A stretch of DNA of 64,000 bases from Elusimicrobia bacterium RIFOXYA2_FULL_47_53. Lineage in GTDB: Bacteria; Elusimicrobiota; Endomicrobiia; Endomicrobiales; XYA2-FULL-47-53. Both the position numbers and the translations under genes were made by a program. The notes under the pieces were generated by a model that saw nothing but the letters and a program-made list of their open reading frames with translations, was not told the origin of the DNA and did not search any database. Positions 36,001-61,018 of the stretch are shown here, in pieces. Every line of letters starts with the position of its first letter. Position 1 is the first letter of the stretch. Location: the NCBI GenBank assembly GCA_001800315.1, contig MGVE01000006.1, positions 124,001 through 188,000 on the forward strand. Direction: 5' to 3'.

Positions 36001-39000
36001 ATAAATTACCTCCCTGTTATGCGACCCCGAATCCATATATGTTCCGTCGCGCATCAGCCAGGACTCGCCCCTCCCGGGGACAAAATTCAGGTTACCCAGC
36101 ATGCTGTTTTTTTCAAAAAACGCGAAGAGCTCAAAAATGTCCCTGGTGCCGTCTTTTACTCCGGCGGCAAGCTGTCTGAAGGCGACTTTCTGGCCCGGAG
36201 TAATTGAGGCATGCGCGCGGCTGAGCATCTCTTTAATTCTGGCGCGCAGGGCTTCAATATTGGCGCTCTTTGGGGCGTTTAACGACCTCCTGATAAACAT
36301 TTGAATCATCGCCGCGATTCTATTCTGTTCTTTTGAGCGCCCGCTTTCTTCGGCGTAAGCCACAACCGGAGCTCCGTCGCCGATGCCGTAACGCGCGCTG
36401 TTGAAATTGCCTCTTATGGTTTCATTATATATTCTTTCGTATTCGTCCACGCGGCCGCTTTCCACCCAGTCTGGGTTAAATTTTCTCAATTTTTCAAGCG
36501 CGGCGCGGTAGGCGGCTTTGTCGGCGTAAGTTTTTAAATAGCCGGTGGCAATATCGTAAATCGCCTTTGCCGACGCGACCCTCCCGGGTTCGTCTAATTC
36601 GTCGGTATCCTCAAAACCCGGAACCGGTTTAAACGGCGTGCCGCCGTCTAAATAAAAATCCTTCAGGCCGCCGCGGTCCGTAACAATCACCAGAGCGAGC
36701 TTGAGCGCCATCTCAATGTTAGCGATACCACCCGGCTCGTCAATAGAAGGCATAAGGAACTGGTTTGACCCGGCGCCAAAACGCTGAAAAAGCTCGTAGT
36801 CCGATTCGTTGACTACAACCAGCTGGCCCTTGTACTTAGGGTTGCCGGCTATTCTGAAAAGTTCCTCCTGAATCTCGCGCCCTCTTTCGTCGCCGGTTTT
36901 ACCCATAATCGGAACCTGGATTTTTGCTCCGGACTCCGGATCGCGGTAATCAAGAAGCTCTTCAAGAAGCGTTTTTCCGCTTTCAAGACGGGTAATGAGA
37001 ACGGAAAGCCCTTTTTGTTTTACCACCCTTCCCGCAAGGCCGAGAACCATGGCTGACGGATCTTCGTCAAGCCCGAGCAGTTTTTGGAGAGCGGCCTTAT
37101 TTTTTTCTTTCCAGGCAAGAGGGTCGGAGCCCACTTCCGAGACGAAACCGTCTTTTTTGAGCCCGGCCGAATTCTCCGGCAGATAGTTCCTGGCCATAAC
37201 GCCGTTGTGAACGGCCGCGAGCTTATTCCTGTTGCTGAGAAGAATTTCGTTCATCCCGTATCCGCGCTCGGGGGTCAGGCATTCAAGCAGATGTCCCCTG
37301 CTCACAAAAGAGATTCTGTCGGAATAGGTTATCGCTCCTTTCATCAGATTCTGCTTTTCCCAGTATTCAATATTTTTTTCTTTTCTGAGGTCCATGGCGC
37401 TGTATCCGAGCCCGGTCAGTTTAAACATTTCAATTACCAGGCCGCCGGTCTCTTTGCTGCGGTAGGCGTTCATTTCCCTGTCGTCATACCCCCTGTGCTC
37501 TCCGAGGACGCCGCGGGAGAACAGGTATCCCAGCAGTCCGCCGCGGCTGTCGGCCCTGTGCGGGATATCCATTGTTCTTGGGAATATGCCCTGGTGCTCA
37601 AGATTATGCACGGTAAATACCGAGGCAGGCCTGCGCCCGAGCTGCCAGTTGCTGTTTTTGTACTCCTCTTCAAGATAAACCGGGCCGAGCGCAGTCTGCC
37701 AGTCGTTGAAGTGCATGGCGTCAAATTCAATGCCGAGATTTTGCTGAATCATCAGGGAAGCGCGGGGAAGCGCTATGGCCTCAATAAAACCTCCGAGCGA
37801 ATTTGGGGGAGGCGTTTTATAGAGCTCGTTGAAAAACTCCCCGTCTTTGTTGAAAAGGAAGAGCACGGGAACCCCCGTATTTTCCTGCTCCGAATAAATT
37901 ACCTCAAAAAGAATTGAGCCGCGCCCGACGGGCACATAAAGTTCGCTTAACACTACCGAGCCGGTCTTACGCATAAACTCTTCCACCGAGCCGTAAGCGT
38001 CGGCGACCGATTTGGAAAAAAGCGGCGTGAAAACGAACGAACCTATCCCTTTGACGCCCTGCGCCGCCGGCGTGTCCTTCATGTAGATACCCTGGCCGCC
38101 GCCCTGCTCGCCTTTGAGGCCAAGTATCGGCATTTCCATGGCCACAAAACACACGACGGGTTTTCCCAGGGCGCGAGCCAGTGATATTCTTCTGTTTATT
38201 TTTTCAAGGGCCGCCGCGCGGGTGAGAGGTTTTTTTCCGGAAAGCTGCAATGCCGCCGCGGCAAGCAGGCTTGGCGCGAGCAGCGCGTTTTGCGCGAAAT
38301 CAACGAACTCCGGCTGAAGCGGCTCTTGGATTTCGGATAAGCCGAAATAGGAGGCTATGCCTCCGGCAACCAGAAAAAACGCCTTAAGAACCGGGCCTTT
38401 TGCTATTTTCCCGCGCGCGGGAATTTTGGCGCGGAGCGGATTTTCGGCGTCCGGCAGTATTTCCACGCCGCTTATTTCGCCCCGACGGGTCTTTAACTGC
38501 CAGCGGCCGTTGTCAATCGCTATTATAAAGTCTATGCCTTTCGGCTCAATGGCTACCGAAACCCCGTGTTTCCCGGCGCTGTTTTCGGCCTGGTTTTTTA
38601 TGCGGGAGAGCGCGTCGCTTAAGCTGAGCCGCCCGGCCTGCGCCTCGTGCAAAACCGCGCCGACAAACATCTCCATCTGTTTGCGCGGCTCAAGCTGTCC
38701 GAAATTTTCCGGTGAGAATGCCGCCGAAGCGATCTCGGCAAGCCCTATCCGTTGCGACATAAGGCTCTCGTACACGCTTTCGTCGTGGTTCTGAGTCGCG
38801 TTTGGAGTTATGGAAATATATGATGAGTTATCAATGCCGTTTGTTATGCCGGAGTGGAATCCGCCGGTCAGAACAACCTCTACATCCCTGAAACCCGAAA
38901 TATTTGACAGAACGGACTTATAACCCGCAGCCGCGGAACGGCCTGTTTCCCGGCCGCGCTCCCGCGGCGGTAAACCGCAGATCGCCGATGTGAAAATGTC

Positions 39001-40299: not shown

Positions 40300-40891
40300 G
40301 GCCGCGCTCCGTTTTGACATTGTTTGCCCGGGACAGCGGGCAAGAGAAAACCCCCGTTGCCTTACAGCAATGGGGGTTAAATGGAAATATGGCGATTAAA
40401 CCGCTGATGTAGTCGTCAATACTGCCTCTGGGCAACAGGAAAAAAAAGCCGTGCAGTTTTAGCCTTCGCGCCTTAAGAAAGATCAGCGCTAAAATACCCG
40501 CGAGTATCAGCCCGGGCCGCGCCTGAGCCGAAGCTTCAATGGGCGAGTTGATAAATGGCCCGGCCAGAAATACATTTTTTAAATCCCCGTTGTATGACGG
40601 GGCGGGAGAATAGATTTTGCATTGCTGCGGGGCCTGCTCCTCTTTCCGCGGCTTTGGCATTGTCTTTTTGCCGGCGTCGGCGGCGAAATCAATAAGCGCT
40701 GAAACAAATTTAAGTTGTCCGCTGAAATTGGCGTTTACCACGGCCAGTACCGGCGATAAACTGCTTTTCATGGCCGCGGGCGCCAAGTCTTGGCGCGCGG
40801 AAAAATCCATTCCTTTCAGATAACCGATATCCGAAACAAGAATGGCAGTAACCTGAATAAGCGCAAGAAAAACAAATACCGCCCTTTTCAT
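40289..40891 (-). CDS. Small membrane protein upstream of the giant chimeric gene
   Basis: 200 residues, family not recognised. The N-terminus MKRAVFVFLALIQVTAILVS is a signal peptide or membrane anchor. A Lys/Glu-rich hydrophilic middle with NSPIEASAQARPG precedes a membrane helix PGLILAGILALIFLKARR at about residues 126-143. The last 35 residues are read through a strong hairpin (40349-40378), so the true functional tail is uncertain. The frame ends 11 bases inside the giant gene's preferred start at 40299, suggesting translational coupling. Upstream, the gene is divergent from mnmG across a 181-base gap. Confidence 0.6.
   Translation of the reverse strand: MKRAVFVFLALIQVTAILVSDIGYLKGMDFSARQDLAPAAMKSSLSPVLAVVNANFSGQLKFVSALIDFAADAGKKTMPKPRKEEQAPQQCKIYSPAPSYNGDLKNVFLAGPFINSPIEASAQARPGLILAGILALIFLKARRLKLHGFFFLLPRGSIDDYISGLIAIFPFNPHCCKATGVFSCPLSRANNVKTERGHVW
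40324..40378 (-). terminator. Tandem hairpins before the giant chimeric gene (attenuator-like)
   Basis: On the minus strand, a 12-bp stem (arms 40367-40378 and 40349-40360, with one G-U pair) is followed by TTTTCTCTT, as in an intrinsic terminator. A second hairpin, TTGCCCG/CGGGCAA (40337-40343 and 40324-40330), then ends three bases before the ATG at 40320. Both lie inside the 3' end of the preceding coding frame, so translation of that frame would melt them. Confidence 0.6.
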
Positions 40892-47944: not shown

Positions 47945-49186
47945 TTACCTCTGGACTACTTTTAACCCTTTTATACTTTCCCTGAAAAGCTTCTGAACCC
48001 CGTCCGCGCAGGCCCAGATATTCTTTCCGTCAAACGCTATCCCTGAAATCGCAAGGCCGTCGGCCTCAAACTGCGGAATTATGTAAATGCCGGCAACAGC
48101 GAAATTTTCGGCCGTCACTTTATAAATCCTGTTTGTTTTCGCATCCGCGATAAAGAAATATTCTCCGTGCTTGAATATGCCTTTGGGATTTTCCGCCGGG
48201 CTGTCAAAGGTTTGTTCAACGCTTAGAGCGCCGTCATCTTTGTGCTTGTAAACCCTGGCAAGCTGAAAATCAAGAGACCACAGGTTCGCGCCGTCATGAT
48301 AAAGGCCGGAGGGGCTCGCCCCGGGGCTTTTATATTCGGCCGAAACAGAGAGCTCGGCGTCCGGATTGAGCCTGTAAATTTTGCCCTCAAAAGGGCTGGC
48401 CGCCCAGATATAATTATTCCCGCAGGCTATCCCGGAGGGAGCTTTGTCTGTTATCTTATAAAGGTTCTCAACTGACAGCTTGGAATCGTTTTTGTGTTTG
48501 TATACTGTTTCCGCCATCCAGTCGCAGGCCCAAAGACTTTTGCCGTCCCAGCTAAGGCCGGAAGGATTAGAATACGGCACCTGAAAGGACGCCCCCGGCA
48601 CCGGCTTATTTAAATATAGATAAACCCCAAAACCAATAAGAGCGGCGGCAACCGCGACAACGGCAACTTTTATTAAAGACAGCTTACCCGAAACCGGCTC
48701 TTCGTCGGCAGGAAGTTCCTGCTCCCGCGCGGCCGTTGAAGGCTGGGCGGGCGGTTTATCCTGTTTAACCGGCAGAGGAGGCGGGGCCGGAGAGCGCGCG
48801 GGAGGAACTGGGGACGGCGTTTTTAAGTCCCTGTTGAGAACTTTCTTTGCCATTCTGAGGAACTCTTCTATCTTAAACGGTTTGGATATATACTCCACCG
48901 CGCCGAGTTTTACAAGTTCTAAGGCGACATCAATTTCCCCGAACCCGGACAATATGACCACCGGCAGCTGCGGTTTGATTTTTTTAAGGCCGGCAAGTAT
49001 TTCCGAGCTGTCCATATCCGGAAGGCTGATGTCAAGGAATACTATATCGGGCATCTCAAGCTTGCACAGCTCCAGCGATTGAGCGCCGTCTTCCGCGCCG
49101 AAAACAATATGCCCGTCGGGTTGCAGGATTTTTGTGATTACCTGCCGCATCCCGGGTTCGTCGTCTATAACCAGTACTTTTGACAT
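47945..49186 (-). CDS. Response regulator fused through a membrane helix to an extracytoplasmic beta-propeller (copy 2)
   Basis: 413 residues from the ATG at 49186 (GGAG eight bases upstream). Residues 1-120 are a complete receiver domain: acidic pair in VIDDEP, phosphoacceptor Asp52 in FLDISLPD, VVILSGFGE, and Lys in YISKPFK. A Pro-rich linker (about 122-165) leads to one membrane helix, VAVVAVAAALIGFGVYLYL (about 174-192). The rest has five repeats of 40-45 residues with the pattern N-P-S-G-L-x-x-D-G-x-x-L-W-x-x-D, then V-Y-K-H-K-x-D, a beta-propeller of the NHL/SGL kind, predicted to lie outside the inner membrane. The histidine kinase gene is 45 bases upstream, the likely partner. A paralogue lies at 58323-59513. 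Confidence 0.88.
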   Translation of the reverse strand: MSKVLVIDDEPGMRQVITKILQPDGHIVFGAEDGAQSLELCKLEMPDIVFLDISLPDMDSSEILAGLKKIKPQLPVVILSGFGEIDVALELVKLGAVEYISKPFKIEEFLRMAKKVLNRDLKTPSPVPPARSPAPPPLPVKQDKPPAQPSTAAREQELPADEEPVSGKLSLIKVAVVAVAAALIGFGVYLYLNKPVPGASFQVPYSNPSGLSWDGKSLWACDWMAETVYKHKNDSKLSVENLYKITDKAPSGIACGNNYIWAASPFEGKIYRLNPDAELSVSAEYKSPGASPSGLYHDGANLWSLDFQLARVYKHKDDGALSVEQTFDSPAENPKGIFKHGEYFFIADAKTNRIYKVTAENFAVAGIYIIPQFEADGLAISGIAFDGKNIWACADGVQKLFRESIKGLKVVQR

Positions 49187-49231
49187 CAATTTTTCTCCGC
49201 TGCGTTTGTGTTTTACTCTTTAGCGGCCGTT

Positions 49232-50614
49232 TTACGCTGACGGCGGCTCAAGCAGAAGGTTGACGGCGACCGTCGTGCCTTTCCCTTTTACGCTTTCAAG
49301 ATGAATTGTTCCCCTGTGCAGGTCTATCACCCGCTGAGCTATAGTAAGGCCGAGCCCCTTGCGCCCCTTTTTGGATGAAAAGTAGGGCTGAAACACTTTT
49401 TTTATGTGCGCCTCGGAAATGCCTGAGCCCGTGTCGGTCATTTTTACGCTCAGCCGGCGGCTGGCCTCATCGTACGCGGTGGCAAGCGTAAGCCCTCCGC
49501 CCTGCGGCATGGACTCAAGCGCGTTCTGCAAAAGCTTGACGAAAGCGTCAAGCATGAGCTTTTTGTCGGCCTTCACCGCGGGAAGATTTGAGCCGAAATT
49601 CCTGCTGACGGCGATATTCTGGCCCTTAAACTGCGCCTCAAGCGGGGAAAACGCGCCCTCAAGCAGTTCGTTCATGTTATGCGCTTCCAGGCTCATTTCC
49701 GGTATCCTGGCCAGCGCGAGAAATTCCTCAATTGATTTTAACATTTCCTGAGCGTTCTGATCAACAATATTGAGCTGTTCCTTAAGTTCATTATCCATCG
49801 GGAAATTCGCGGTGCACAGCTGAATGGTTCCCGACATAATTCCCAGATAGTTGCGCACCTTGTGGGCAAAGCCCCTGGCCAGGTCCTCTAAAATTGTAAA
49901 ATGCTCTTTTTCCCTGTCCTTAAGATTGGTGAGCTGCTGCGACATCTGGCCGCTGATACCGCCGACTTCTTTCTCAAGCTTTTCCCACTTTGTTTTCTCC
50001 TGGTTAAAAATACTCTCTTTCTCGGCCAGCGCCCGGGCCACCTCTTTCTTTTCTTCTTCAAGTTTCTCAAGCCTTTTTCTTGACTCTTCTTCCTTCGCCT
50101 TAAGATTCTCTTCAAGCTCCTTGAGCTGCTTTTCCATCATCGCGCGGCCCGCGAAGAACTCCTGCGGCGCGTAGGCGCCGGCTCCGGGCGTTATGGCCAC
50201 GCCTTCGGAAACGCCGAGCTTGCTCTTTAAATCCTTGTTCTCGCTTTCAAGAACGGAGAGCCTTGATTCCCACTGCGATTTTGTTTTTTCTAAAATTGCC
50301 TCGGTTTCCTTCGCTTTTACCCTGTCTTCCAGAAGCATTTTCTCCTGCTCCCACCTTCTTTCCAGCTCCTTTAGCTTTATGTCAAGCTCTTTTATGGCGA
50401 ACTCGTGGGTTTGAGCCTGAGACTGCATATTCTTTTTTTCTTCCTCTTTTACCTCAAGCTTTCTTTCCCAGAGCATGAGCTCTTCGTCGTAGCGCCTTTT
50501 CCAGAAATCAGCCACGGAAATGGCGTCAACTACCTGCATCATCTCGGAATCAACAGGCATATCCGTTTGAATTTTTTTAAGTTCTTCTTCAACCCAGTCC
50601 CACGAATCTTGCAT
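49232..50614 (-). CDS. Soluble coiled-coil histidine kinase
   Basis: 460 residues, no membrane helix. Residues 45-235 are a long Glu/Lys-rich coiled coil, which replaces a sensor domain. The dimerisation/phosphoacceptor box reads GFAHKVRNYLGIMSGTIQL; the His is the expected phosphorylation site. The ATPase domain has the N box (LLQNALESM), G1 (DTGSGI), F box (FQPYFSSK) and G2 (GLGLTIAQRV). This is the NtrB-like HisKA/HATPase layout. AGAGGC precedes the ATG. It is followed by the receiver-TM-propeller gene and preceded by the outer-membrane/LysM gene. The signal it senses cannot be read; the coiled coil may dock to another protein. Confidence 0.92.
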   Translation of the reverse strand: MQDSWDWVEEELKKIQTDMPVDSEMMQVVDAISVADFWKRRYDEELMLWERKLEVKEEEKKNMQSQAQTHEFAIKELDIKLKELERRWEQEKMLLEDRVKAKETEAILEKTKSQWESRLSVLESENKDLKSKLGVSEGVAITPGAGAYAPQEFFAGRAMMEKQLKELEENLKAKEEESRKRLEKLEEEKKEVARALAEKESIFNQEKTKWEKLEKEVGGISGQMSQQLTNLKDREKEHFTILEDLARGFAHKVRNYLGIMSGTIQLCTANFPMDNELKEQLNIVDQNAQEMLKSIEEFLALARIPEMSLEAHNMNELLEGAFSPLEAQFKGQNIAVSRNFGSNLPAVKADKKLMLDAFVKLLQNALESMPQGGGLTLATAYDEASRRLSVKMTDTGSGISEAHIKKVFQPYFSSKKGRKGLGLTIAQRVIDLHRGTIHLESVKGKGTTVAVNLLLEPPSA

Positions 50615-50684
50615 GTTAGCCTCTCTTGCAGCGGTAAGGGGTATGGGGTAAGCGGTAAGTTAAACCCGTGTTTGCCTTGTATTT

Positions 50685-50722
50685 GTTCGCGCTTACCTCT
50701 TATCACTTACAACTTACCACTG
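50685..50722. repeat. CTTA-type degenerate repeat
   Basis: CGCTTACCTCTTATCACTTA followed by CAACTTACCACTG: the same repeat type as at 19370, 24040 and 47582. It lies between the outer-membrane/LysM gene and the kinase gene. Confidence 0.5.
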
Positions 50723-50724
50723 TT

Positions 50725-52638
50725 CTATGGTATCTTTATTTCCTGGCCGGGCTTCACCTGCCCGCCCACAAACTTTCCTTTATTGGCATTATATATTTCT
50801 TTCCATCTGCCGGCGTCATTGTAATACTTTTTCGCGATTCCCTGAAGATTTTCTCCCGGACGGACTATGTGTTTTCTCGGCCCGGATTTTTTCGGCTCTT
50901 CCTTTTTGGGCTCCGTTTTCTCCTGAGGCAGAACCTCGGCTTTTGGCGCTTCTTTTTTGTCCTCCGGCCCGGCCGTCTTGGGCTGTTCTGCCGCGGGCCC
51001 GCCCATCTGAATGACTTTTATCTGCATGGGAGCCGCCGCCGGCGCCGCTCCCGGCTGGCCCATGCCGGGCAATGCTGTTTTTACCGGAGTGATCTCCTGG
51101 GTTTGAACCGCAGCCGGTGAAACAGGCTGAACTCTCGGAGCGGTTGATTCCTGCGAGAACGGCGTCTCGCCGCGGGTTATGGGAGGAATAATAAGCACCT
51201 GATTGGCCTTTAAAACCCCGCCTCTGCCGATGCTGTCCCTGTTCGCCTGGTATATCTCGTTCCAGTATTTGGATTCGTTATAGTATTTTTCAGCGATAGA
51301 CTGAAGCGTTTCACCCTTTCTGACAACATGCCTTGTTTCCCTGCGTTCCCTGGTTTCAGCGGCCGCGGGAACGGCGGCGTCACCCTTGTCTTCCTTGTAG
51401 GCCTTTTCGGTTTTCGCGGCTTTAATTCTTTCCTTTATGCGCAGGGTGGCCTCATCTATCAAAACCTCTTCAAGCCTTTTTCTCTCGGATTCGGTTTCCG
51501 AAAGGGTGGCCTTAAGCCCCTCAACCTCGTCTTTGAGGTCGGCGTAATACATCTCAAGGCTGCCGGGCTCCAGCTCGGCTTTAACGATTCTGCCGAATTT
51601 GTAAACAAAACTCATTCTGTGCGATCCGCTCGTATCTTTAATTCCGCTAAACGGCAGCTGAAAAACATAATCTATCTGTACCGGCCTTAGGTCAAAGGAA
51701 AAACCCAGGCTGCCCATGGCGTAGTTCCTTCCGCCCATGCTGACTCCGGCTCTTATGGCAAAAAGTTTCTTAAACCATTTTTCAAACCCGGTGGCGCCGT
51801 ACCAGTTATTGGCCCTGTAGATGCAATCGGCGTCCCATCTGATATCCCTCTGTTTCCAGGCTATGCCGGCCCTGTAGGTTGAGTTGAGCCTGTCAACCGA
51901 GCTCAGGCCCAGGTCCGGCTGATTGATATCTGAGGCGGAAATTCCCGCGAAAAGCCTCGGCATAATATTGTATACGACTCCCGCGTCAACGCTGAAGGCG
52001 TTTACCGATGATTTTTTGCCATAGTCAAAGACCGGGCTCAGCTCAAGGTATTTGTCTATCACATATTTTTCCGTGAGAGCTTTTAAGTTTATTCCGTACG
52101 CCCACTTGTTGTTTACTGACTTGCTCAAACCAAGATAATAGGATGATTCCTGGTAATGGTCCATCAAATCAAACTGTCTCCAGCCGACCGAAAGCGTAAA
52201 GAGGTGAACGGTGGAAATTCTGTACTCAACCGCGGCCGCGGTTGACACCTGCACCGCGGCGGCCGAGGAAGTGGAAACGCTGTCGCGGCTGCCGGCCACG
52301 GCTTCGGACTTAATTTTCATGAACGGCAGAGTAAGTCCCACGAATGAATTTGATATATCGGATTTGTCTGTCAGCCCCAGCCACAACTTGCCGTAGTCGG
52401 CTCCGAGCTGGCTCTGGCGCACAAGGCCGGGGCCTGCCGGATTGTAGTAAAAACCGAAAGGATCGTCGGCAATGGCGCAGTACGCACCGCCAAGGCCTAT
52501 GGCTCTCGCCCCGGCTCCCAAATCGTCAAAATCAGCGCTTGATTGCTGGGCAAGGGAAAAAACAACGGCAAGCACACTGATAAATATCAGAATGTCGTTT
52601 TTTACCGTCAATAGTGTTTTTGCCGCTTTTTGATTCAT
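50725..52638 (-). CDS. PorV/PorQ-type outer-membrane protein with two LysM domains
   Basis: 637 residues from the ATG at 52638, which has AGGAAAAAT before it and opens a signal peptide (ILIFISVLAVVFSLAQQSSA). A frame starting at 52791 would overlap the upstream gene and bury this signal. Residues 35-330 match the PorV/PorQ (UPF0164) barrel: GAGARAIGLGGAYCAIADDP, FYYNPAGPG and repeated amphipathic strands. A coiled coil (about 345-390) is followed by a LysM domain (VVRKGETLQSIAEKYYNESK), a Pro/Ala/Glu-rich linker, and a second LysM (IVRPGENLQGIAKKYYNDAG) at the C-terminus. The LysM domains would bind peptidoglycan, so the protein could link the outer membrane to the cell wall (inference). It lies 59 bases after the fibronectin-rich gene. 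Confidence 0.88.
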   Translation of the reverse strand: MNQKAAKTLLTVKNDILIFISVLAVVFSLAQQSSADFDDLGAGARAIGLGGAYCAIADDPFGFYYNPAGPGLVRQSQLGADYGKLWLGLTDKSDISNSFVGLTLPFMKIKSEAVAGSRDSVSTSSAAAVQVSTAAAVEYRISTVHLFTLSVGWRQFDLMDHYQESSYYLGLSKSVNNKWAYGINLKALTEKYVIDKYLELSPVFDYGKKSSVNAFSVDAGVVYNIMPRLFAGISASDINQPDLGLSSVDRLNSTYRAGIAWKQRDIRWDADCIYRANNWYGATGFEKWFKKLFAIRAGVSMGGRNYAMGSLGFSFDLRPVQIDYVFQLPFSGIKDTSGSHRMSFVYKFGRIVKAELEPGSLEMYYADLKDEVEGLKATLSETESERKRLEEVLIDEATLRIKERIKAAKTEKAYKEDKGDAAVPAAAETRERRETRHVVRKGETLQSIAEKYYNESKYWNEIYQANRDSIGRGGVLKANQVLIIPPITRGETPFSQESTAPRVQPVSPAAVQTQEITPVKTALPGMGQPGAAPAAAPMQIKVIQMGGPAAEQPKTAGPEDKKEAPKAEVLPQEKTEPKKEEPKKSGPRKHIVRPGENLQGIAKKYYNDAGRWKEIYNANKGKFVGGQVKPGQEIKIP

Positions 52639-52697
52639 ATTTTTCCTGTGGCCGACCGCCCCGGCATACACTGCGCTTAACTTATCGTTTATGACGC

Positions 52698-55600
52698 TCA
52701 CCTTGCCAGAATTATCGTTCCGTTCACAACTTTTTTCTGAGACTCTATCTGATAAATATATACACCCTTTGAGGCTCCGGCGCCGTCCCATTCCAGTATT
52801 ACGGTTGTCGCGGTGGCGTCTCCGACGGGGGCGATATCCGCGATGTATTCGCCGCGCATATCAAATATTTTTCCGGAAATTTTGTCTCCGTCCGGGTTGT
52901 CCGTAAAAAACATTATTTTTTCGTAGGGAGCGACTCCGGGAGTAAAAGTTTTGGAAGGGTATATGCTGGCCAAACCGAAGGCCGTGGCGCGGCTGACCTG
53001 CCTTAACTGGTACTCGCCCGGCCGCTTTACCCTTATAACCACTTTTTTCTTTAACTCGTCCATATATCCGCCGACCCTGATGTATTCCACTCCGTTGAAC
53101 CAGTAAACCGCGAGCTCTCCGGAAACAAAAGAAGACGGAGCGGCAAACGGCGTTCCCATGGAAGGAGCGGGGAAGAGGTTGCCATAAGAAAACTGAAGAG
53201 TGACAGGCACGCTGAACTCATAGTTTGAAATATTTTCAAGCGCCGCGTCCTGAACCTTAAGATCGTACACCCTGAAGGTTTTGCCGACCTCAAGATCGGT
53301 CTTCCTTACGAAATCCACAGTAATATCTTTCTGCCATTTGTTGTTTTCCGCGAGCAGCTCGCTGGATGTTTCCGCCGGAAGCTCGGCGACCGCTTCCTGG
53401 TCCTGCGAAACCAGCGTCAGCCTTTCCGGATTTGAGGTGTCCAGAATAAGCGAATTCGCGCTTTCGGTCCCGGATTCGTCTATCGCCCGCACGAAGAAGA
53501 AATATTTACCGGCGAGAATAGTGGGATCCGTGTATTCCAGAACCGCCTTGTCTACAAATGAAATTTTTACCGCGGCGCTAAGCCCCGCGACGGAGACGGC
53601 CCTGTAAATATTGTAGCCCGAGAGGTCGTCGGCCGCTGTCCCGTCCGTATTTGTTATTACCGGCGACCATTTAACGGTAAAACAGCATTCATCGGACGAT
53701 ATCGCTCCCCTCAAACCCGCCGGAGGAACCGGCTTGTTGATAACCGGAATAGCAAACGAGAATATTCCCGCGCAGTCCCTTTCAAGGCCTTTTAAATCCT
53801 TGGCGACAACCCTCCAGTAGTAAGTCCTGTTTTCAAGCAGGGCCTCGGGAACCGAGTAATTGTTTGTTTTTATGGATTTTTTGTTCAGCGTCAGTACTGA
53901 GAAATCTGAAACCGTTGAAATAAACAGCTCGTATTCCACGCTGTCGTTTAAATCGCCGTCTACCGCGGCATTCCAGGAAAGAGCCGGAGTTTTCGTGTCC
54001 ACGGCCGAACCGTTGGCGGGAGCGAGCAGCGCGAAACTATGCGGCGGATTATTAGTCATGGATATTACAAACGACCAGGTCGGGCTGAAAACAAAATCCG
54101 GATCAACATTTGAAGGCGGATTGCCCTGATAACCGCTCGCGCGGACCCGCCAGTAATAAGTTGACTGGTCTAAAAGGCCTGTCAGCGGCTGATAGAATGT
54201 ATCGGCGCCGGTCGGTATGGGCTGGCTGCCGGTAAAGGATGGGTCCTGGGAAATTTCTATGTAGTAGCGAACTATATCGGCTGGATCCGGATCCTCAGCG
54301 GCTTGCCATATGAACCACGGGGTCAGAGTTGTTGAAATCAGAACCCCGTAGGCCGGCTCAGACAGGCTGAAACTGCCCGGAGTTTGTTTTACAATGTCGG
54401 TATAGAATTTTCTCACGGCTGACTGCTGGCTTTTTCCGTTGTTCTGGCTTACGGCGTCCACCTTCCAGAAGTAATCGCGGTTGTCTCCCCAGAACATGTA
54501 CTGGGCAGTCGTGGTCTGCGTCAGCCCGGTTATCGTGGTGCTGAAAGCCACATTAAAGTCCGAGTCAAGAGAATAAGTCAGGTTATAATACACCGAGTCC
54601 CGCGGATCCGGCGCTGTCGCGGAATTCCATGAGAAGCTGACATCAAGAGATGTCTGTCTTTCGTCATTAGCCGGGGTCAACAGGGCAAAACTGTTCGGGG
54701 CTTCCGAGGTTCCGTTCACCGCGAACGAGTTGGTGGTGGCGCTCATGGTATAAAGCAGGCCGTCGGTAGACCAGACCCTCCACCAGTAAGTGGAGTTTTC
54801 CACAAGCGCCGGAGTTGTAAATGCCGTTGAAACTAAACCGGCCGATGAAGCGTACGAGGTGAACTCGGGGGTCTGCGAATAATCCACTTTATAGGTCCAG
54901 CTGTCTCCGGGGTCATTGTCCACCGAAACGGTCCAGGAAAGCTCCGGAGCCTGCGTATAAACTATAGACGAGTCCTGCGGCCCGGTTAGAGAGAATGCCG
55001 TGGGAGCCGTGTTAATTACATTGATTCTTACTTTATAGTATGGCGGCGAACACAAAGCCGCCGTCCCGTCGGCGTCAACAGCCCTCGCCTCCCAGTAAAT
55101 TGTTTTGTCCTCCCAGAGCTGGAAGCCCGGAGTATAAGTAGGAGTGCTGAGTCCGGCAACCACGGTCGTTATGGAAACATTAAACGAGCTCTCGGTTGAA
55201 AATGAAATAGTGTAGCTAAGTGTGTCTCCGAGCGCCGAATCCTGATCGCTGGAAGCCTGCCAGGTGAAAACCGGCGTCGCGGTCGGAGAAACACTGTTGT
55301 CGGCAGGAAGGTTTAATGAGAAAACCGCGGGGCCGCGGTTGACCGGAGCGGCGGCGGGCGAGGTTGAAGAAACCGCGGACCAGTTGCCTCTCTCGTCTGA
55401 AGTTTTAACGGCGAAATAGTAGGTGGTTCCGTTGCTTAATCCGGTTACCGCGCAGGACTGCAGGCTCCCGGGAGTTGTGGAGGTTGCCCAGGAAATTCTA
55501 TAAGGGTATCCCGCTGAAACCTGATCCCAGTTGGCGCCGGTTATTTCAGCGTAACTGGAAATTCTTAAGTCATAGGAACCGCTCAAGGCGTTGCTTGTGC

Positions 55601-57962
55601 CGTCGTCGCCGGGCGCGGCCCATGAAAGGCTTATCTGTCTCCAGGAGGGAGAAATCGCTATGGAGGTCACGGTCGCGGGGGCGGTTATATCCACCTGAGC
55701 CCAGGCGGTAGCTCCGTCTGAAACCGCCGACCAGTTGCCGGCTTCATCAGCGGACCAGACGCGCGCGTAATATGTCACTCCGCCGGTAAGCCCCTCTATC
55801 TCGCGGGCCTGAGGTTCGTACGGCTGAACCGTTGTGGTAATCTGTATTTGATAAGAAGACAGCTGGAAATTGTATTGCGGATCGCTTGAGTAGTCAATGC
55901 GGTATTTGCCGTCCGTTATCTGGCCTGACGGTCCGTTATCGCCGGGCGCTTCCCAGCTCAGGTTTATCTTTCCCTCGCTTGAGCCCTGCGAAGCCGAGAT
56001 TGTTGTAATAGCCATGGGCGCCACGGTGTCCAGGGTTCTTGTGGATACGAAGGAAGAGAAAGGCGATTCCATCTCAAGGCTGAAATATCCGTTGCCGAGG
56101 TTTCCTTTGTCTATGCAGGTTATGCCGTAAAAATATGTGGTTTCCGAGAGAAGCCCGGTATCAATATAGTAGGTAGTCGGATGCGCCACCGCGAAAGTGC
56201 TTATGTTTACGGCCGCGGCTGAGAAAGAGAATGTCGCTCTGTAAACTTTATAAATATTCCTGTCGTCGTAGCCGCTTACGGAGGGCAGGCCCCATGAAAC
56301 CGCGACTGAATTAGACCCGAGCGCGACGGCGTAGGGATTAGCCGGAGCCTGCGGCGGCCTGTCCAGCGCCGATACCGCCTTAGTGGCGGCGATGAGAGAA
56401 TAATTGTTTACCTTGTCTCTGGCCCTAAGCGAGAACCAGTAGGTTGTGCCGGGATAAAGGCCGGTTAAAACCCTCGGTGGTTCGGTGCTGGGAAAGGTTA
56501 CGGTCGCCGCCACATTTGACGAAACTCCTATGGCGTCAAATATGTCCTCCGTAATGTCCGAGGTGCTCCATTTCACCACATAAGAGCTGCTCTGGCCTGT
56601 TGTGCCGTCGTCTCCCGAGGCAACCCAGGTGAGGCGCACCTCTCCGTCATTTGTCCATGTTTCGGCGCTGGTCAGAAGCGGCGCGGCCGGCGCTATTCTC
56701 GGCAGGGTGGTTGAAACCTGAATATAATCGGGTATAACAGGAAGCTCGTCGTTATTTGTCGCCCAGATTCTGTATTGGTAAGTCGTTCCCTCCAGCAAAC
56801 CGAGATCCTGGTGGGTCGTTGAGGCGGCAAGAGTCATGGCATTGACAAGATTCGCGATGAAACCGTCGGTGGAGCGCTTAACGGTATATCTTGTGTAGGA
56901 GGGATTGGAATTGTTCTGCCAGGTAAGTTCGGCCTTGGCGGTTGTCAGCACAGAGGTCACGGTTCCCGGCTGGTTGCAGAATGTAAATAATATTTTCGCG
57001 TTTGAATTTATCGCCTGTAAATCGTTGAAAGCCTCAACTACAACGGCTCCCGAAGCGTTGGGTGTAAGCCCGCTCATTACCCAGTATGTTACGGAGGCGG
57101 CAAGGTCCCCCGACATGTTTTCGCCGGTAGTGGAATTGATAACCCGAAACCCGTCGGAGTTTGAAACCAGGTTCCAGGCCCACTGAATATCGGACGACGA
57201 AATAGCGGCCGCGTCAGCCGAGAAGGCCGGCTGCGCCATGGCTACCCACGGCGCCGTTGAACCAACCGAGCTGTATTCGCCTGTATTATTTGTGTTGTCT
57301 TTAGCCCTCACCCTATAATAATAGGTATTGCCGTTTAAAAGAGCCGTGTCCTGGTGGGTCGTTCCGGGTGAAAGTATAGCCACCAGTTCGCTAAAACCGG
57401 AAAGCGCCGAGTAGCTTGAGCTTTCCACGATATATTCCTTTATATCATTTTCAGGGTTTGCGCTCCAGGAAATGTCAACGAAGGCATTGTTCGCCGCGAG
57501 AGTCAGACCCGAAACCTTTGAGGGCGATGAATCAAAGATTACGCAGAAATTGGCCGTATTCCAGGCGCCCAGCGTATCCACCGAGGACTGCCAGACGCCG
57601 TAATTAGACAATGAATCAATGGCCGCGGCCGCGAAATAAAGAGTCGCGCCCGGAGCAAGATTTGACAGCAGCCTGGATTCAGCGGTGCCGCTTGAAGCAA
57701 GCGAACTCCAGCTCTGCGTATAAGTGCTCGTCCAGGAGCTGAAAAAATCGGCCGAATTTATCTCGGCGGTCGCGTATTTAACCAGATATCCCTGGGGAGC
57801 GCTGAATCCGTCGGAAGGATCCGGAGCAGTCCATTCAAGCGTCATGGTTCCTTCTGCTGACCCGGCAAGGGCCGTCAGGTCGCAGACGGCTGCAGGAACG
57901 GCAAAAACGGGGGCAAACAGCCCCGTCAGAGCTACCAATGATAATAAGACGCGTTTTATCAT
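52698..57962 (-). CDS. Fibronectin-rich secreted surface protein with FlgD-like C-terminus
   Basis: 1754 residues from the ATG at 57962. An upstream ATG at 57989 lies in the terminator T-run, so it is rejected. The signal peptide is MIKRVLLSLVALTGLFAPVF. Eight or so fibronectin type III modules follow (each with patterns like LxWxAPGDDG and GTTYYFAVKTSDERGNWSAVS), then five related modules with the pattern P-x-F-x-W and T-Y-W-W-R-V, and one more fibronectin module near residue 1430. After a linker, the last 90 residues are a FlgD/T9SS-like Ig fold: KIFDMRGEYIADI, LEWDGAGASKGVYIYQIES and a GTIILAR end. Such C-terminal domains serve in secretion or surface anchoring. A cyclic di-GMP-I riboswitch and a terminator lie in its leader. 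The outer-membrane/LysM gene follows at once, so both are probably controlled together. Confidence 0.9.
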   Translation of the reverse strand: MIKRVLLSLVALTGLFAPVFAVPAAVCDLTALAGSAEGTMTLEWTAPDPSDGFSAPQGYLVKYATAEINSADFFSSWTSTYTQSWSSLASSGTAESRLLSNLAPGATLYFAAAAIDSLSNYGVWQSSVDTLGAWNTANFCVIFDSSPSKVSGLTLAANNAFVDISWSANPENDIKEYIVESSSYSALSGFSELVAILSPGTTHQDTALLNGNTYYYRVRAKDNTNNTGEYSSVGSTAPWVAMAQPAFSADAAAISSSDIQWAWNLVSNSDGFRVINSTTGENMSGDLAASVTYWVMSGLTPNASGAVVVEAFNDLQAINSNAKILFTFCNQPGTVTSVLTTAKAELTWQNNSNPSYTRYTVKRSTDGFIANLVNAMTLAASTTHQDLGLLEGTTYQYRIWATNNDELPVIPDYIQVSTTLPRIAPAAPLLTSAETWTNDGEVRLTWVASGDDGTTGQSSSYVVKWSTSDITEDIFDAIGVSSNVAATVTFPSTEPPRVLTGLYPGTTYWFSLRARDKVNNYSLIAATKAVSALDRPPQAPANPYAVALGSNSVAVSWGLPSVSGYDDRNIYKVYRATFSFSAAAVNISTFAVAHPTTYYIDTGLLSETTYFYGITCIDKGNLGNGYFSLEMESPFSSFVSTRTLDTVAPMAITTISASQGSSEGKINLSWEAPGDNGPSGQITDGKYRIDYSSDPQYNFQLSSYQIQITTTVQPYEPQAREIEGLTGGVTYYARVWSADEAGNWSAVSDGATAWAQVDITAPATVTSIAISPSWRQISLSWAAPGDDGTSNALSGSYDLRISSYAEITGANWDQVSAGYPYRISWATSTTPGSLQSCAVTGLSNGTTYYFAVKTSDERGNWSAVSSTSPAAAPVNRGPAVFSLNLPADNSVSPTATPVFTWQASSDQDSALGDTLSYTISFSTESSFNVSITTVVAGLSTPTYTPGFQLWEDKTIYWEARAVDADGTAALCSPPYYKVRINVINTAPTAFSLTGPQDSSIVYTQAPELSWTVSVDNDPGDSWTYKVDYSQTPEFTSYASSAGLVSTAFTTPALVENSTYWWRVWSTDGLLYTMSATTNSFAVNGTSEAPNSFALLTPANDERQTSLDVSFSWNSATAPDPRDSVYYNLTYSLDSDFNVAFSTTITGLTQTTTAQYMFWGDNRDYFWKVDAVSQNNGKSQQSAVRKFYTDIVKQTPGSFSLSEPAYGVLISTTLTPWFIWQAAEDPDPADIVRYYIEISQDPSFTGSQPIPTGADTFYQPLTGLLDQSTYYWRVRASGYQGNPPSNVDPDFVFSPTWSFVISMTNNPPHSFALLAPANGSAVDTKTPALSWNAAVDGDLNDSVEYELFISTVSDFSVLTLNKKSIKTNNYSVPEALLENRTYYWRVVAKDLKGLERDCAGIFSFAIPVINKPVPPAGLRGAISSDECCFTVKWSPVITNTDGTAADDLSGYNIYRAVSVAGLSAAVKISFVDKAVLEYTDPTILAGKYFFFVRAIDESGTESANSLILDTSNPERLTLVSQDQEAVAELPAETSSELLAENNKWQKDITVDFVRKTDLEVGKTFRVYDLKVQDAALENISNYEFSVPVTLQFSYGNLFPAPSMGTPFAAPSSFVSGELAVYWFNGVEYIRVGGYMDELKKKVVIRVKRPGEYQLRQVSRATAFGLASIYPSKTFTPGVAPYEKIMFFTDNPDGDKISGKIFDMRGEYIADIAPVGDATATTVILEWDGAGASKGVYIYQIESQKKVVNGTIILAR

Positions 57963-57980
57963 AATGTTTTCGCCATTTTG

Positions 57981-58023
57981 AAAAAACAAAAACTACCGTT
58001 CGGCCCGTCACTGGCCCGGTAGC
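57981..58023 (-). terminator. Intrinsic terminator in the riboswitch leader
   Basis: On the minus strand, CTACCG and CGGTAG close a hairpin with an inner GGCC-type stem, followed by TTTTTGTTTTTTC. It lies between the cyclic di-GMP aptamer and the start of the fibronectin-rich gene, so read-through decides expression. Confidence 0.85.
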
Positions 58024-58145
58024 TAAAGATAGGGGGTCTTTTTAATGCGCGCTACCCGCAAAACGAAAATTCCCGTTTTCGCGGTCGGCCTCAGCTGTTC
58101 TTTTTCGGTAACCCGGCTGGCGTGGATAGGCCCCCTATCTTTAGC
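58022..58145 (-). promoter_or_regulatory. Long-range 15-base complement linking aptamer and terminator
   Basis: GCTAAAGATAGGGGG (58022-58036, plus strand) is the exact complement of 58131-58145. On the RNA, the aptamer segment GCUAAAGAUAGGGGG could pair with the stretch just before the terminator hairpin. That pairing would break the aptamer's GAUAGG/CCUAUC stem, so the two folds are mutually exclusive. Confidence 0.75.
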
Positions 58146-58190
58146 CCCGTGGCTTTGCGTCCCCGAGTTTCCTCAGGTTTGCCATGCTTT
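58104..58190 (-). promoter_or_regulatory. Cyclic di-GMP-I (GEMM-I) riboswitch, copy 2
   Basis: Read on the minus strand: GGCAAACC, a P1b hairpin CCTGAG-GAAA-CTCGGG with the expected GNRA tetraloop, GACGCAAAGCC, GGGGCTAAAG, a GATAGG-GGG-CCTATC stem, and CAGCCGGGTTACCG. Every conserved block of the GEMM-I consensus is present in order. It sits about 50 bases after a promoter and about 80 bases before a terminator, so it most likely controls transcription elongation into the fibronectin-rich gene. The direction (on or off) cannot be settled by eye. Confidence 0.93.
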
Positions 58191-58254
58191 AAAAGCAATC
58201 CGCTTTAAAGCGGTTTTTATCGTAAGAACATAACAGCTTTTTGGCCGCACTCAT

Positions 58255-58283
58255 TAAATAACAGAGTTCGCTATATTTGTCAA
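58255..58283 (-). promoter_or_regulatory. Promoter for riboswitch 2
   Basis: On the minus strand, TTGACA (58278-58283), 17 bases, TATTTA (58255-58260). The -35 box is perfect and the -10 box weak. Transcription would start near 58248, ahead of the aptamer. It begins about 40 bases after the stop of the neighbouring receiver-propeller gene. Confidence 0.6.
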
Positions 58284-58322
58284 GGTTTTTTTAAAAAATA
58301 GTCCGGCCGCGTTTTCCGGGCC

Positions 58323-59513
58323 TTAATATTTAACTTCTTTCATGGAATTGAATGAAAAGTTGAATATTTTACCTATTCCGTCCGCGCTGGCCCATAGAGT
58401 TTTGCCGTCGGAAGTAATGCCTGCCAGCTTATAATTATTCTTTACAAAATACGGTATTTCATAAACATCGCTGACAGAGAAATCCTTAACCGAAACTTTA
58501 TATATCCTTCCGGTCTTGTAGTCGCCTATGAAAAAATTCTCTCCGCTTTTAAACATGCCGCAGGGGTTAATGGCCGGGCTGTCAAAAGTGCCTATCATTG
58601 AAATTGTTTCGTCCATTTTGTGCTTGTAGATTTTGGCGGCCTCTGAATCCAGCACCCAGAGGTTAGCGCCGTCAAAATAAAGGCCGGAGGGATTGCCCCC
58701 GGAGGTGGCGAAAATGGCTTCTACCGTGAGCGAGGCGTCCATATTATGCCTGTAAATCCTTTTTTCTATGGAACTGCAGGTCCAGAGTTTCTCTCCGTCA
58801 TAAGTCAAACCCGTGGGCTGGCTGTTCGCGCTTTTGTAAACCGAAGCTATGGAAAGCTTCGCGTCCTTGTTATGCTGATAGATATTGCCCATCACCCAGT
58901 CGGTGACCCAGAGATTCTGTCCAATGGAACTAATACCCGTCGGATTGGCATAGGGTATAGCGAATTCCTGCACCGCGCCGGAACTAAACAATCCCCTGCC
59001 GAATATTACGGCAAGCGCGATAAGAAGAGCTGCGCCGGCTCCTATCAGTATTCCCTTCGGAAGAGGTTTTTTAGCCGCCGCGGGAGCTGAAACCGCCGCC
59101 TGAGGCTTTGAAGCAGGAGCCGCCGCCGCCGCGGCCGCCTGGCCCTGGGCCGGCACGGCGCCCAGCGCTTTATTGACGACTTTAAGCACTTCGTCAATTT
59201 TAAATGGTTTGGATATATAATCAAAAGCTCCCTGCTTTATTGAAGAGACCGCTGTCTCTACATCGCCGAAGCCGGAGAGCATTATACATTTAATGTTGGG
59301 GTTTATTTTCTTGAGCTCCGCCAGGACCTCAAGGCCGTCCATGTCCGGAACTCTCATATCAAGAAGAGCGAGATCGGGAACTTCCCTGGCTCCGATTTCA
59401 ATAGCCTGTTTTCCGTCCTCCGCCGTAAAAAGAGGATGCCCCAGCGGCTTCACCATGTTGTAAACCACATTTCTCAAAGCCGGTTCATCGTCCATAATCA
59501 GAATCTTTGCCAT
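58323..59513 (-). CDS. Response regulator fused through a membrane helix to an extracytoplasmic beta-propeller (copy 1)
   Basis: 396 residues from the ATG at 59513, with GGAGG nine bases upstream. The receiver domain (residues 1-118) has MDDEP, phosphoacceptor Asp in LLDMRVPDMDG, IMLSGFGD and YISKPFK. An Ala/Pro-rich linker (about 122-150) precedes one membrane helix, ILIGAGAALLIALAVIFG. The outer part has about five repeats of the NPTGI / LWVTDWVMGNIYQHNKDAKL type. It is a full-length paralogue of 47945-49186, with the same domain order and propeller but a different linker. It is the last gene of the FtsA-CheC-CheD-CheY operon, 22 bases after CheY. Its kinase is not in the operon. Confidence 0.9.
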   Translation of the reverse strand: MAKILIMDDEPALRNVVYNMVKPLGHPLFTAEDGKQAIEIGAREVPDLALLDMRVPDMDGLEVLAELKKINPNIKCIMLSGFGDVETAVSSIKQGAFDYISKPFKIDEVLKVVNKALGAVPAQGQAAAAAAAPASKPQAAVSAPAAAKKPLPKGILIGAGAALLIALAVIFGRGLFSSGAVQEFAIPYANPTGISSIGQNLWVTDWVMGNIYQHNKDAKLSIASVYKSANSQPTGLTYDGEKLWTCSSIEKRIYRHNMDASLTVEAIFATSGGNPSGLYFDGANLWVLDSEAAKIYKHKMDETISMIGTFDSPAINPCGMFKSGENFFIGDYKTGRIYKVSVKDFSVSDVYEIPYFVKNNYKLAGITSDGKTLWASADGIGKIFNFSFNSMKEVKY

Positions 59514-59535: not shown

Positions 59536-59904
59536 TTATTTTCCTTCAAGGGCGGCTTTAATCTTTTCAAGCATCTGGGCCGGATTATAGGGTTTTGAAA
59601 TATATCCGCTTGCCCCGGCTTCCGTGAGCGTTTCCGGCTCCCCGGAGAGGTCGTGGCCGGTGCACATTAACACGGGTATTTTTGCCGTCAGAGGATCGGC
59701 CTTGATCATTTTGCAGGCCTCCCAGCCGTCCACTTCGGGCATTTCGGCGTCAAGCAAAACTATATCGGGCATTTCTGATTTTGTTTTTTCAAAAGCCTCG
59801 CTTCCGTCGGCAGCCTCAACCACGGTATGGCCGCCCTTCTCCAGGGACATTTTTGCGATTTTTCTCATCATGTCCGAATCGTCAGCGATAAGTATCTTTG
59901 CCAT
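59536..59904 (-). CDS. CheY-like single-domain response regulator
   Basis: 122 residues, a lone receiver: ADDSDMMRKIA, phosphoacceptor Asp in VLLDAEMPEVDGWE, VLMCTGHD, and YISKPYNPAQM. There is no output domain, as in CheY, though the Thr/Ser switch site and flanks look like generic single-domain receivers. GGAGG stands 6 bases from the ATG. Its neighbours CheC and CheD suggest it is the phospho-CheY-type protein on which CheC acts. Confidence 0.92.
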   Translation of the reverse strand: MAKILIADDSDMMRKIAKMSLEKGGHTVVEAADGSEAFEKTKSEMPDIVLLDAEMPEVDGWEACKMIKADPLTAKIPVLMCTGHDLSGEPETLTEAGASGYISKPYNPAQMLEKIKAALEGK

Positions 59905-59924: not shown

Positions 59925-60410
59925 TTATATCTCTTTTGTTCCTATTTTGGCGGACTTTATCGTAAGTTTCCCGCTTGTCGTGTCAAATACTATGGTCCTG
60001 CCGTAATTCTTGCCGGTGTCCTCCGCGACAAGAAAAATTTTCGCGTTTTCCAGAAGCTTCTTCACGGCCTCAATGTTTCTGTCTCCGATATTCATTGAGG
60101 GGTCCGGAACCGCGCTCTGGAACATACAGGCGCCTCCGGCGATCTTGGCCGTTATTTTTGCCCTGACCGCGCCCAGGCGGGTCATCTCCTCAAGCATCTT
60201 TGCCACGGCGACATCGGCGAATTTCGGGCTGGGCGCCTGGGAGCTTCTTGACAGAGCGCTGTCCGGAAGCATGATATGGGCAAGCCCGGAAACTTTAGTA
60301 ACCGGATCGTGCAAAGCGATGCCGACGCAGGAACCGAGGCTTATGGATTCCAGCAGGCAGGCGTTTTTCGCGACTATATATTCGCCTATTCCTACGCTTA
60401 TCACATCCAT
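59925..60410 (-). CDS. cheD: Chemoreceptor glutamine deamidase CheD
   Basis: 161 residues. CheD deamidates receptor glutamines and, bound to CheC, raises its phosphatase activity. The catalytic Cys lies in SLGSCVGIALHDP and the His in GLAHIMLPDS. KIAGGACMF, IGDRNIEAV and GRTIVFDTTSGKL complete the family pattern. The ATG shares one base with the preceding CheC-type stop (TGATG), so the two are translationally coupled. No chemoreceptor, CheA or CheW is present in the window. Confidence 0.95.
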   Translation of the reverse strand: MDVISVGIGEYIVAKNACLLESISLGSCVGIALHDPVTKVSGLAHIMLPDSALSRSSQAPSPKFADVAVAKMLEEMTRLGAVRAKITAKIAGGACMFQSAVPDPSMNIGDRNIEAVKKLLENAKIFLVAEDTGKNYGRTIVFDTTSGKLTIKSAKIGTKEI

Positions 60411-61018
60411 CAGGCAATACCCACTTTTTTAAATATCCTCTCCAGCGACGGCGTATCTGGGAAAATAATAAAGTTTCCCTCCAGCTTGGCGTCAGGGGAC
60501 TTTATCTCGGTTTCCATAAGAAGCGCGTAGTCAACTTCCTGCGCTATTTCTATCAGCAGATAGTCCACTACGGCGCCGAGCGCGTCTGAAGAATAAAACG
60601 GAACCGAAATAAAAATTTGAGCGTCTATCATGTCTGCCAGCGCGTTAATGTAAGAATTAGTAAGGATATTTCCGAGCTCCATCATCGCCGATCTTTCTAT
60701 TTCTTCAAATTCAACATGGTTTTCCGGCTTTATGCCGGCCATCAGCAGCGCCGTTAAAGAACTCGCGGTATCGGCCGGAAAAAACAGCAGGACGCTTCCC
60801 GTGATGTCTCCCAATATTTTGAAATACAGGCCGACTATGGGTATTTCCGCCCCGCCCAGTTTTTCCGGGACCTTTGTCACGGGCACCAGGGCCAGGTCGG
60901 GTATGTCCACCGTGACTGTTTTGTCAATAAGTTTTGACAGCGCGGTCGCGGCATGCGCGGTGCCGACATTAACAAATTCTTTAAGGGCGTCTATCTCCAT
61001 TTCGGTGTATTCTTTCAT
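60410..61018 (-). CDS. CheC-type phosphatase (both active sites intact)
   Basis: 202 residues. CheC-family enzymes remove phosphate from CheY-P. Both copies of the signature D/S-x3-E-x2-N-x22-P are complete: DALKEFVN...P near residue 9 and SAMMELGN...P near residue 110, each with exactly 22 residues before the Pro. The order CheC, CheC, CheD, CheY matches a CheC/CheD/CheY control loop. It overlaps the gene before it by four bases (ATGA). Confidence 0.92.
   Translation of the reverse strand: MKEYTEMEIDALKEFVNVGTAHAATALSKLIDKTVTVDIPDLALVPVTKVPEKLGGAEIPIVGLYFKILGDITGSVLLFFPADTASSLTALLMAGIKPENHVEFEEIERSAMMELGNILTNSYINALADMIDAQIFISVPFYSSDALGAVVDYLLIEIAQEVDYALLMETEIKSPDAKLEGNFIIFPDTPSLERIFKKVGIA

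Follow-up and report, generated by a model that had tools for sequence, protein, structure and literature searches.

We analyzed a 64,000-nucleotide stretch of the genome of Elusimicrobia bacterium RIFOXYA2_FULL_47_53 (assembly GCA_001800315.1, contig MGVE01000006.1, positions 124,001 to 188,000, forward strand), which we call the window, and found that it encodes two proteins, RR1 and RR2, in which a receiver domain is joined through a linker and a single transmembrane (TM) helix to a propeller predicted to lie in the periplasm. We propose, with a probability of roughly 0.4, that these two response regulators span the membrane, connect cytoplasm and periplasm within a complex that crosses the envelope, and signal from the inside out. 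Textbook two-component systems have an outward-facing kinase and a regulator that acts inside. In the present family, across much of the phylum, it is the regulator that crosses the membrane, and its gene shares a conserved operon with those of a soluble kinase, a wall-anchored barrel, and a surface protein. All positions are those of the window, its features are collected in Table 1, and gene calls in loci fetched from other genomes were made mechanically.

Both genes are intact open reading frames (ORFs) with a ribosome-binding site: GGAGG lies ahead of the RR2 start at 59513, and GGAG lies upstream of the ATG at 49186, one codon downstream of a TTG at 49189, which is the most likely start of RR1. 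Each protein begins directly with its receiver domain and therefore has no signal peptide (Pfam Response_reg, 91 bits in RR1 and 94 bits in RR2 against a cut-off of 30). Both receivers retain the acidic pair, the phosphoacceptor aspartate, the serine, and the lysine expected of a response regulator. The cytoplasmic output expected of one was not found in either protein, since the sole other domain lies beyond the TM helix in the predicted topology. Hydropathy analysis identified one hydrophobic helix in each protein (Kyte-Doolittle [KD] values of 2.4 to 2.5). An AlphaFold model of RR2 built with 49 family sequences had a mean predicted local distance difference test (pLDDT) score of 89.7; the receiver reached about 97, residues 120 to 155 formed a low-confidence, disordered linker, and the propeller had five four-stranded blades, the last of which is closed by the post-TM strand at residues 182 to 185. 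The architecture is thus well supported by Pfam, hydropathy, and modeling, in agreement with a sequence-only reading of this DNA that had described the order of receiver, disordered linker, one membrane helix, and five-repeat propeller, and the paralogy that it had proposed for the two proteins holds over a full-length alignment with 42% identity. That reading had also known of no named family with this layout. No Pfam or NCBIfam model spans the whole architecture, and we found no description of membrane-bound response regulators with propellers in the openly licensed literature, so the family is apparently undescribed.

The sequence-only reading had raised co-occurrence across Elusimicrobiota as a check, and a census of 341 Elusimicrobiota genomes with a propeller profile (E ≤ 1e-8) found the TM-propeller module in 145 genomes and in 65 of 100 genera. 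Exactly one segment with a KD value of at least 1.6 was present in 96 of 109 distinct family ORFs, and the distance from the start of the TM helix to the C terminus was nearly constant in the 109 proteins (median, 245 amino acids [aa]; 5 to 95% range, 237 to 255), a regularity well outside what chance would give. Basic residues were more numerous before the helix in 67 proteins and after it in 20, with 20 ties. Because of this positive-inside bias and the envelope proteins encoded nearby, we predict a cytoplasmic N terminus and a periplasmic propeller, the placement that had been suggested before. Among 95 members with gene context, the N-terminal head was an intact receiver in 36, a degenerate receiver in 28, a TPR domain in 10, and a coiled coil or other sequence in 21; these classes were assigned by profile and motif, so that borderline members may be misfiled. 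The heads cluster on the propeller tree but have been exchanged, with at least 11 changes needed; what stays constant is therefore TM plus propeller, for which the receiver is one among several alternative inputs or partners, a feature that the sequence-only reading had missed along with the cargo and barrel genes described below. The home genome encodes four such proteins: RR1, RR2, a coiled-coil protein of 694 aa, and one of 371 aa whose receiver is degenerate. Whatever the head, residues D205 and W206 of blade 1 were conserved at 97 to 98% across 106 propellers and are the prime candidate for a binding site common to the family; the most conserved positions were otherwise the W, D, G, P, and Y residues of the repeat structure. 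A genome search confined to the order did not find the family in f3, the taxonomic family that forms the bulk of that order. Restriction to Elusimicrobiota was suggested by a scan of 84,980 species genomes with short peptides, an approach that reaches no further than close relatives. A plasmid search with the whole protein matched the receiver alone among the records listed, and no record reached 80% query coverage. Degenerate-receiver TM-propeller genes are often followed by short genes that look PilZ-like (L004, L042, L050, L093, L099, L107, L112, L120, and others); the label comes from sequence alone, unconfirmed by a family search, and hints at a link to cyclic di-GMP (c-di-GMP).

RR1 immediately follows a histidine kinase (HK) gene, as had been noted. 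We found about 44 HKs encoded directly upstream of family members, mostly with short or overlapping gene gaps, and none had a TM segment. Since these kinases lack a membrane helix, it is the regulator of the pair that crosses the membrane, which inverts the usual arrangement. Several of the kinases are bare dimerization and catalytic (DHp and CA) domains of 217 to 231 aa, and others are coiled-coil proteins of up to 1800 aa. An HK lay immediately upstream of 29 of 36 members with intact receivers versus 4 of 26 with degenerate ones (Fisher P = 4e-7, uncorrected for relatedness). Soluble, mostly coiled-coil kinases of about 1600 to 1820 aa precede receiver-TM-propeller genes at L064, L067, L072, L076, and L084.

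RR1 closes an operon that encodes, in order, an fn3-repeat surface protein, a PorV/FadL-like barrel with LysM domains, the HK, and the head-TM-propeller protein, and the same order recurs in many families. A third paralogue in the home genome likewise follows fn3 and PorV-LysM genes. The model of the barrel protein contained a signal helix, 14 strands, a long helix, and two LysM domains; its best match in the PDB was chain F of 6h3i (the type 9 translocon), followed by FadL. A C-terminal LysM domain was present in 50 of 57 members of the barrel cluster. In the home genome, 35 PorV-family and 11 LysM matches shared a frame only at two barrels beside propeller genes, as judged from coordinates. 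The C terminus of the fn3 protein gave a weak Por_Secre_tail match (E = 0.0017), its counterpart in L007 matched the type B domain Bac_Flav_CTERM (E = 3e-5), and a CHU_C match had an E value of 0.0013, all of them below the cut-offs. A terminator-like inverted repeat at 58200 to 58213 separates RR2 from the fn3 operon, so the two would be separate transcription units. PorV-family frames number about 30 in the home genome and CHU_C-like C-terminal domains (CTDs) about 20; several lie next to each other, suggesting many pairs of cargo and barrel. At L039 and L051, what is encoded upstream of a coiled-coil TM-propeller gene is not the PorV-LysM barrel but a ComEA-like protein with a C-terminal LysM domain.

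These neighbors raise the question of the type 9 secretion system (T9SS), which published papers hold to be confined to Bacteroidota. The home genome has a SprA-like ORF of 1768 aa (L143:2173-7479, minus strand) that scored 166 bits against a cut-off of 200, and matches to such a SprA/Sov-like protein of about 1800 aa occurred in 288 of the 341 genomes, all below the curated cut-off. The motor subunit GldL/PorL had no match at an E value of ≤0.1 in the home genome, which leaves room for a divergent motor. Because the SprA and CTD matches were below threshold and GldL was not found, we rejected filing the RR1 operon with the T9SS and call its surroundings T9SS-like only. They suggest PorV/SprA-like surface display outside Bacteroidota that is coupled to two-component signaling.

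The RR2 gene ends a che operon, as the sequence-only reading had seen; the order is CheB, CheA, RR-PAS, FtsA/PilM-like, RR-PAS, CheC, CheC, CheD, CheY, and RR2. All four methyl-accepting chemotaxis proteins (MCPs) found in the home genome are encoded in one cluster just upstream of this operon (L142; G000:C6:194263-208460). We found no flagellin match in the home genome and four PilT matches, and the chemosensory output is probably pilus or surface based; a membrane-spanning che output is in keeping with such a machine. The same ending, a CheY-like receiver gene followed by a receiver-TM-propeller gene, also occurs in L043 and L048, which come from other families of the order.

We infer from these arrangements a chain of parts that would run from the surface protein through the outer membrane barrel, LysM on the wall, the periplasmic propeller, and one helix to the receiver and the soluble kinase. 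The kinase (the adjacent coiled-coil HK for RR1 and CheA for RR2) would phosphorylate the cytoplasmic receiver, whose oligomerization or conformational change would pass through the flexible linker and the single helix to the five-bladed propeller. The propeller would dock on the periplasmic face of the wall-anchored PorV/PorP-like barrel-LysM protein that displays the large fn3 protein and, once docked, may alter the display, secretion, or mechanical state of the fn3 protein in adhesion or surface motility. The sequence-only reading had left open whether signals pass inward or outward. We favor the inside-out direction for three reasons: the receivers keep their full phosphotransfer chemistry, RR2 comes last, in the output position, in a che operon that has MCPs of its own, and the pair of HK and propeller protein has no conserved neighbor that is a conventional output regulator. 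A bolder statement, which we hold tentatively, is that receiver phosphorylation is turned directly, without transcription, into a periplasmic conformational signal that controls a wall-anchored surface complex; this would be a two-component system of reversed topology, with a soluble kinase and a membrane-crossing regulator, and would include a membrane-spanning che output in a bacterium without flagellin. If true, it would provide a direct link from phosphorelay to surface and a candidate answer to how flagella-less Elusimicrobiota use chemotaxis genes.

Several results weigh against the inside-out proposal. Many family members carry degenerate receivers or coiled coils, and RR2 and several other members are not in an operon with a barrel. 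The association of HK genes with intact receivers reduces to 4 independent pairs on the tree, which point in the same direction or are tied and are not significant. The link to the T9SS is partial, with SprA below the cut-off in all 341 genomes, GldL unmatched, and weak CTD matches. Moreover, TPR-headed members keep the adjacent HK in 10 of 10 cases although they have no receiver, and therefore the conserved partner of the HK may be the TM-propeller protein as such and not a phosphorylated receiver.

The TPR-headed members speak for signaling in the opposite direction, a serious alternative that we rate as somewhat less probable. The proteins would then be receptors like PknD or FecR: the propeller would sense a periplasmic state (barrel occupancy, wall fragments, or a ligand in its cup), and the helix would relay it to a head that docks on and regulates the soluble kinase, with the receiver serving as a kinase-binding or phosphate-sink domain. 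With no membrane helix in the kinases and no separate input domain in the bare ones, only the propeller qualifies as a candidate sensor in the pair. The near invariance of D205 and W206 under any head suits a sensor. In a profile search, the nearest solved relatives of the propeller were designed Pizza6 propellers, virginiamycin B (Vgb) lyase, and, more weakly, PknD (1rwi, E = 0.0019), whose six-bladed propeller has been termed a sensor domain (PMC3601408). However, the che operon that RR2 ends already has four MCP sensors upstream, the receivers keep all phosphotransfer residues, more than docking alone would require, and conservation next to the pair does not extend to any conventional output regulator.

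It is unlikely that the proteins are static anchors, in which TM and propeller would form a PorE-like bridge from the inner membrane to the barrel and the heads would merely position it (at a pole or on the cytoskeleton) with little signaling. The repeated exchange of heads, the 28 of 95 degenerate receivers, and the resemblance of the propeller, LysM, and barrel to PorE and PorP are as such a bridge would have it, but 36 of 95 members keep the complete receiver chemistry, mostly with an adjoining HK.

We consider it very improbable that the propeller is a periplasmic enzyme, akin to glutaminyl cyclase or Vgb lyase, that is controlled from inside. The best fold matches were the five-bladed glutaminyl cyclases 2iwa and 3nok (TM-score by target, 0.72 to 0.77), followed by Vgb lyase, but at only 12 to 18% identity; the glutaminyl cyclotransferase Pfam family was absent among RR1 and RR2 hits at an E value of ≤0.5 despite the shared five-bladed fold, the curated propeller cut-offs were not reached (SGL, 19 versus 26.3 bits; Vgb_lyase, 28.6 versus 50), and conservation falls mostly on repeat-structural residues. 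The likeness is one of fold without a family match, and we rejected both enzymes as assignments. Least probable of all is an artifact, with a cytoplasmic propeller and a hydrophobic segment that is not a TM helix: the topology is a prediction, but almost every member, across many families, has a strongly hydrophobic helix in the same position, with a positive-inside bias and envelope neighbors.

By comparison with known systems, the inside-out proposal combines familiar elements. PorE (PG1058) of Porphyromonas gingivalis is a periplasmic protein with a five-bladed propeller that binds peptidoglycan and the PorP barrel, which anchors type B cargo (PMC9143113, PMC5053529). Likewise, RR1 and many relatives, but not RR2, are encoded beside a PorP/PorV-like barrel. 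The likeness extends to a five-bladed propeller in the periplasm (predicted for RR1 and RR2) next to a FadL-type barrel of 14 strands that would carry a large surface protein with a CTD (T9SS-like in the RR1 operon), to a complex that binds peptidoglycan, and to TPR domains in PorE and in some Elusimicrobiota heads. PorE, however, lacks a cytoplasmic part; it is an outer membrane lipoprotein that carries an OmpA_C domain, whereas RR1 and RR2 showed neither an OmpA_C domain nor lipoprotein character. The Elusimicrobiota propeller is predicted to be tied to the inner membrane in a protein that also has a receiver, and it is the barrel whose LysM domains would bind the wall. The CheY domain of Flavobacterium johnsoniae PorX, which can be phosphorylated, binds the motor protein GldL on its cytoplasmic side (PMC10951265). 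Through its binding to PorL/GldL, the receiver of this PorX/PorY system works directly on an envelope machine and not on gene expression alone; unlike RR1 and RR2, PorX is a soluble protein that has a PglZ domain, the sensor is PorY, and the genes are unlinked. The family looks like the PorE-PorP and PorX-GldL ideas joined in one chain.

The nearest published architecture is PknD of Mycobacterium tuberculosis, which has a cytoplasmic signaling domain, a linker, one TM helix, and an external NHL-type propeller but differs in its Ser/Thr kinase, which Pfam did not find in RR1 or RR2, in its six blades instead of five, and in having no outer membrane barrel partner. FecR-type regulators have a cytoplasmic N terminus with an anti-sigma head, a single TM helix, and a periplasmic C-terminal part, and they are genetically paired with an outer membrane barrel. 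They are the nearest topology with an outer membrane partner but have no propeller, and their FecR domain gave no Pfam hit in RR1 or RR2; neither PknD nor FecR has a receiver. Bacteroides hybrid two-component systems also join external propellers to two-component chemistry, but the propeller is N-terminal, kinase, receiver, and helix-turn-helix domain share its chain, and the output is DNA binding. LapD passes a cytoplasmic state to a periplasmic effector domain, but it does so through c-di-GMP with HAMP and GGDEF-EAL domains and has no phosphotransfer.

Table 1. Features of the window around RR1 and RR2
Feature	Position	Strand	Evidence
RR1, receiver-linker-TM-propeller protein, 413 aa from ATG at 49186	47945..49186	-	ORF, Pfam, alignment, hydropathy
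RR1 receiver, DDDSK intact (acidic pair, phospho-Asp, Ser, Lys)	48833..49186	-	Pfam and motif
RR1 single TM helix	48611..48667	-	Hydropathy, KD 2.38
RR1 propeller domain, predicted periplasmic	47948..48589	-	Profile/sequence
RR2, receiver-linker-TM-propeller protein, 396 aa	58323..59513	-	ORF, Pfam, AlphaFold
RR2 receiver, DDDSK intact	59160..59513	-	Pfam, motif, AlphaFold
RR2 TM helix (AlphaFold helix 157-176)	58986..59045	-	Hydropathy and AlphaFold
RR2 five-bladed propeller, residues 182-394	58332..58970	-	AlphaFold and fold search
Soluble coiled-coil HK, HisKA and HATPase_c, no TM, 460 aa	49232..50614	-	ORF and Pfam
PorV/FadL-like 14-strand outer membrane barrel, long periplasmic helix, two LysM	50725..52638 (probable start near 52638; ORF opens 52791)	-	Pfam/NCBIfam, structure model, fold search
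fn3-repeat surface protein, signal peptide, T9SS-like CTD	52698..57962 (ORF opens 57989)	-	Family searches
CheY-like single receiver, directly upstream of RR2	59536..59904	-	ORF, gene context
CheD	59925..60410	-	PF03975, 115.6 bits
Two tandem CheC-like genes	60410..61629	-	60410-61018, CheC match; 61015-61629, paralogue by sequence
RR-PAS protein and FtsA/PilM-like ATPase	61630..64000	-	Operon continues past window into RR-PAS, CheA, CheB

Elsewhere in the window, a single ORF of 5410 aa occupies positions 24088 to 40320 on the minus strand.

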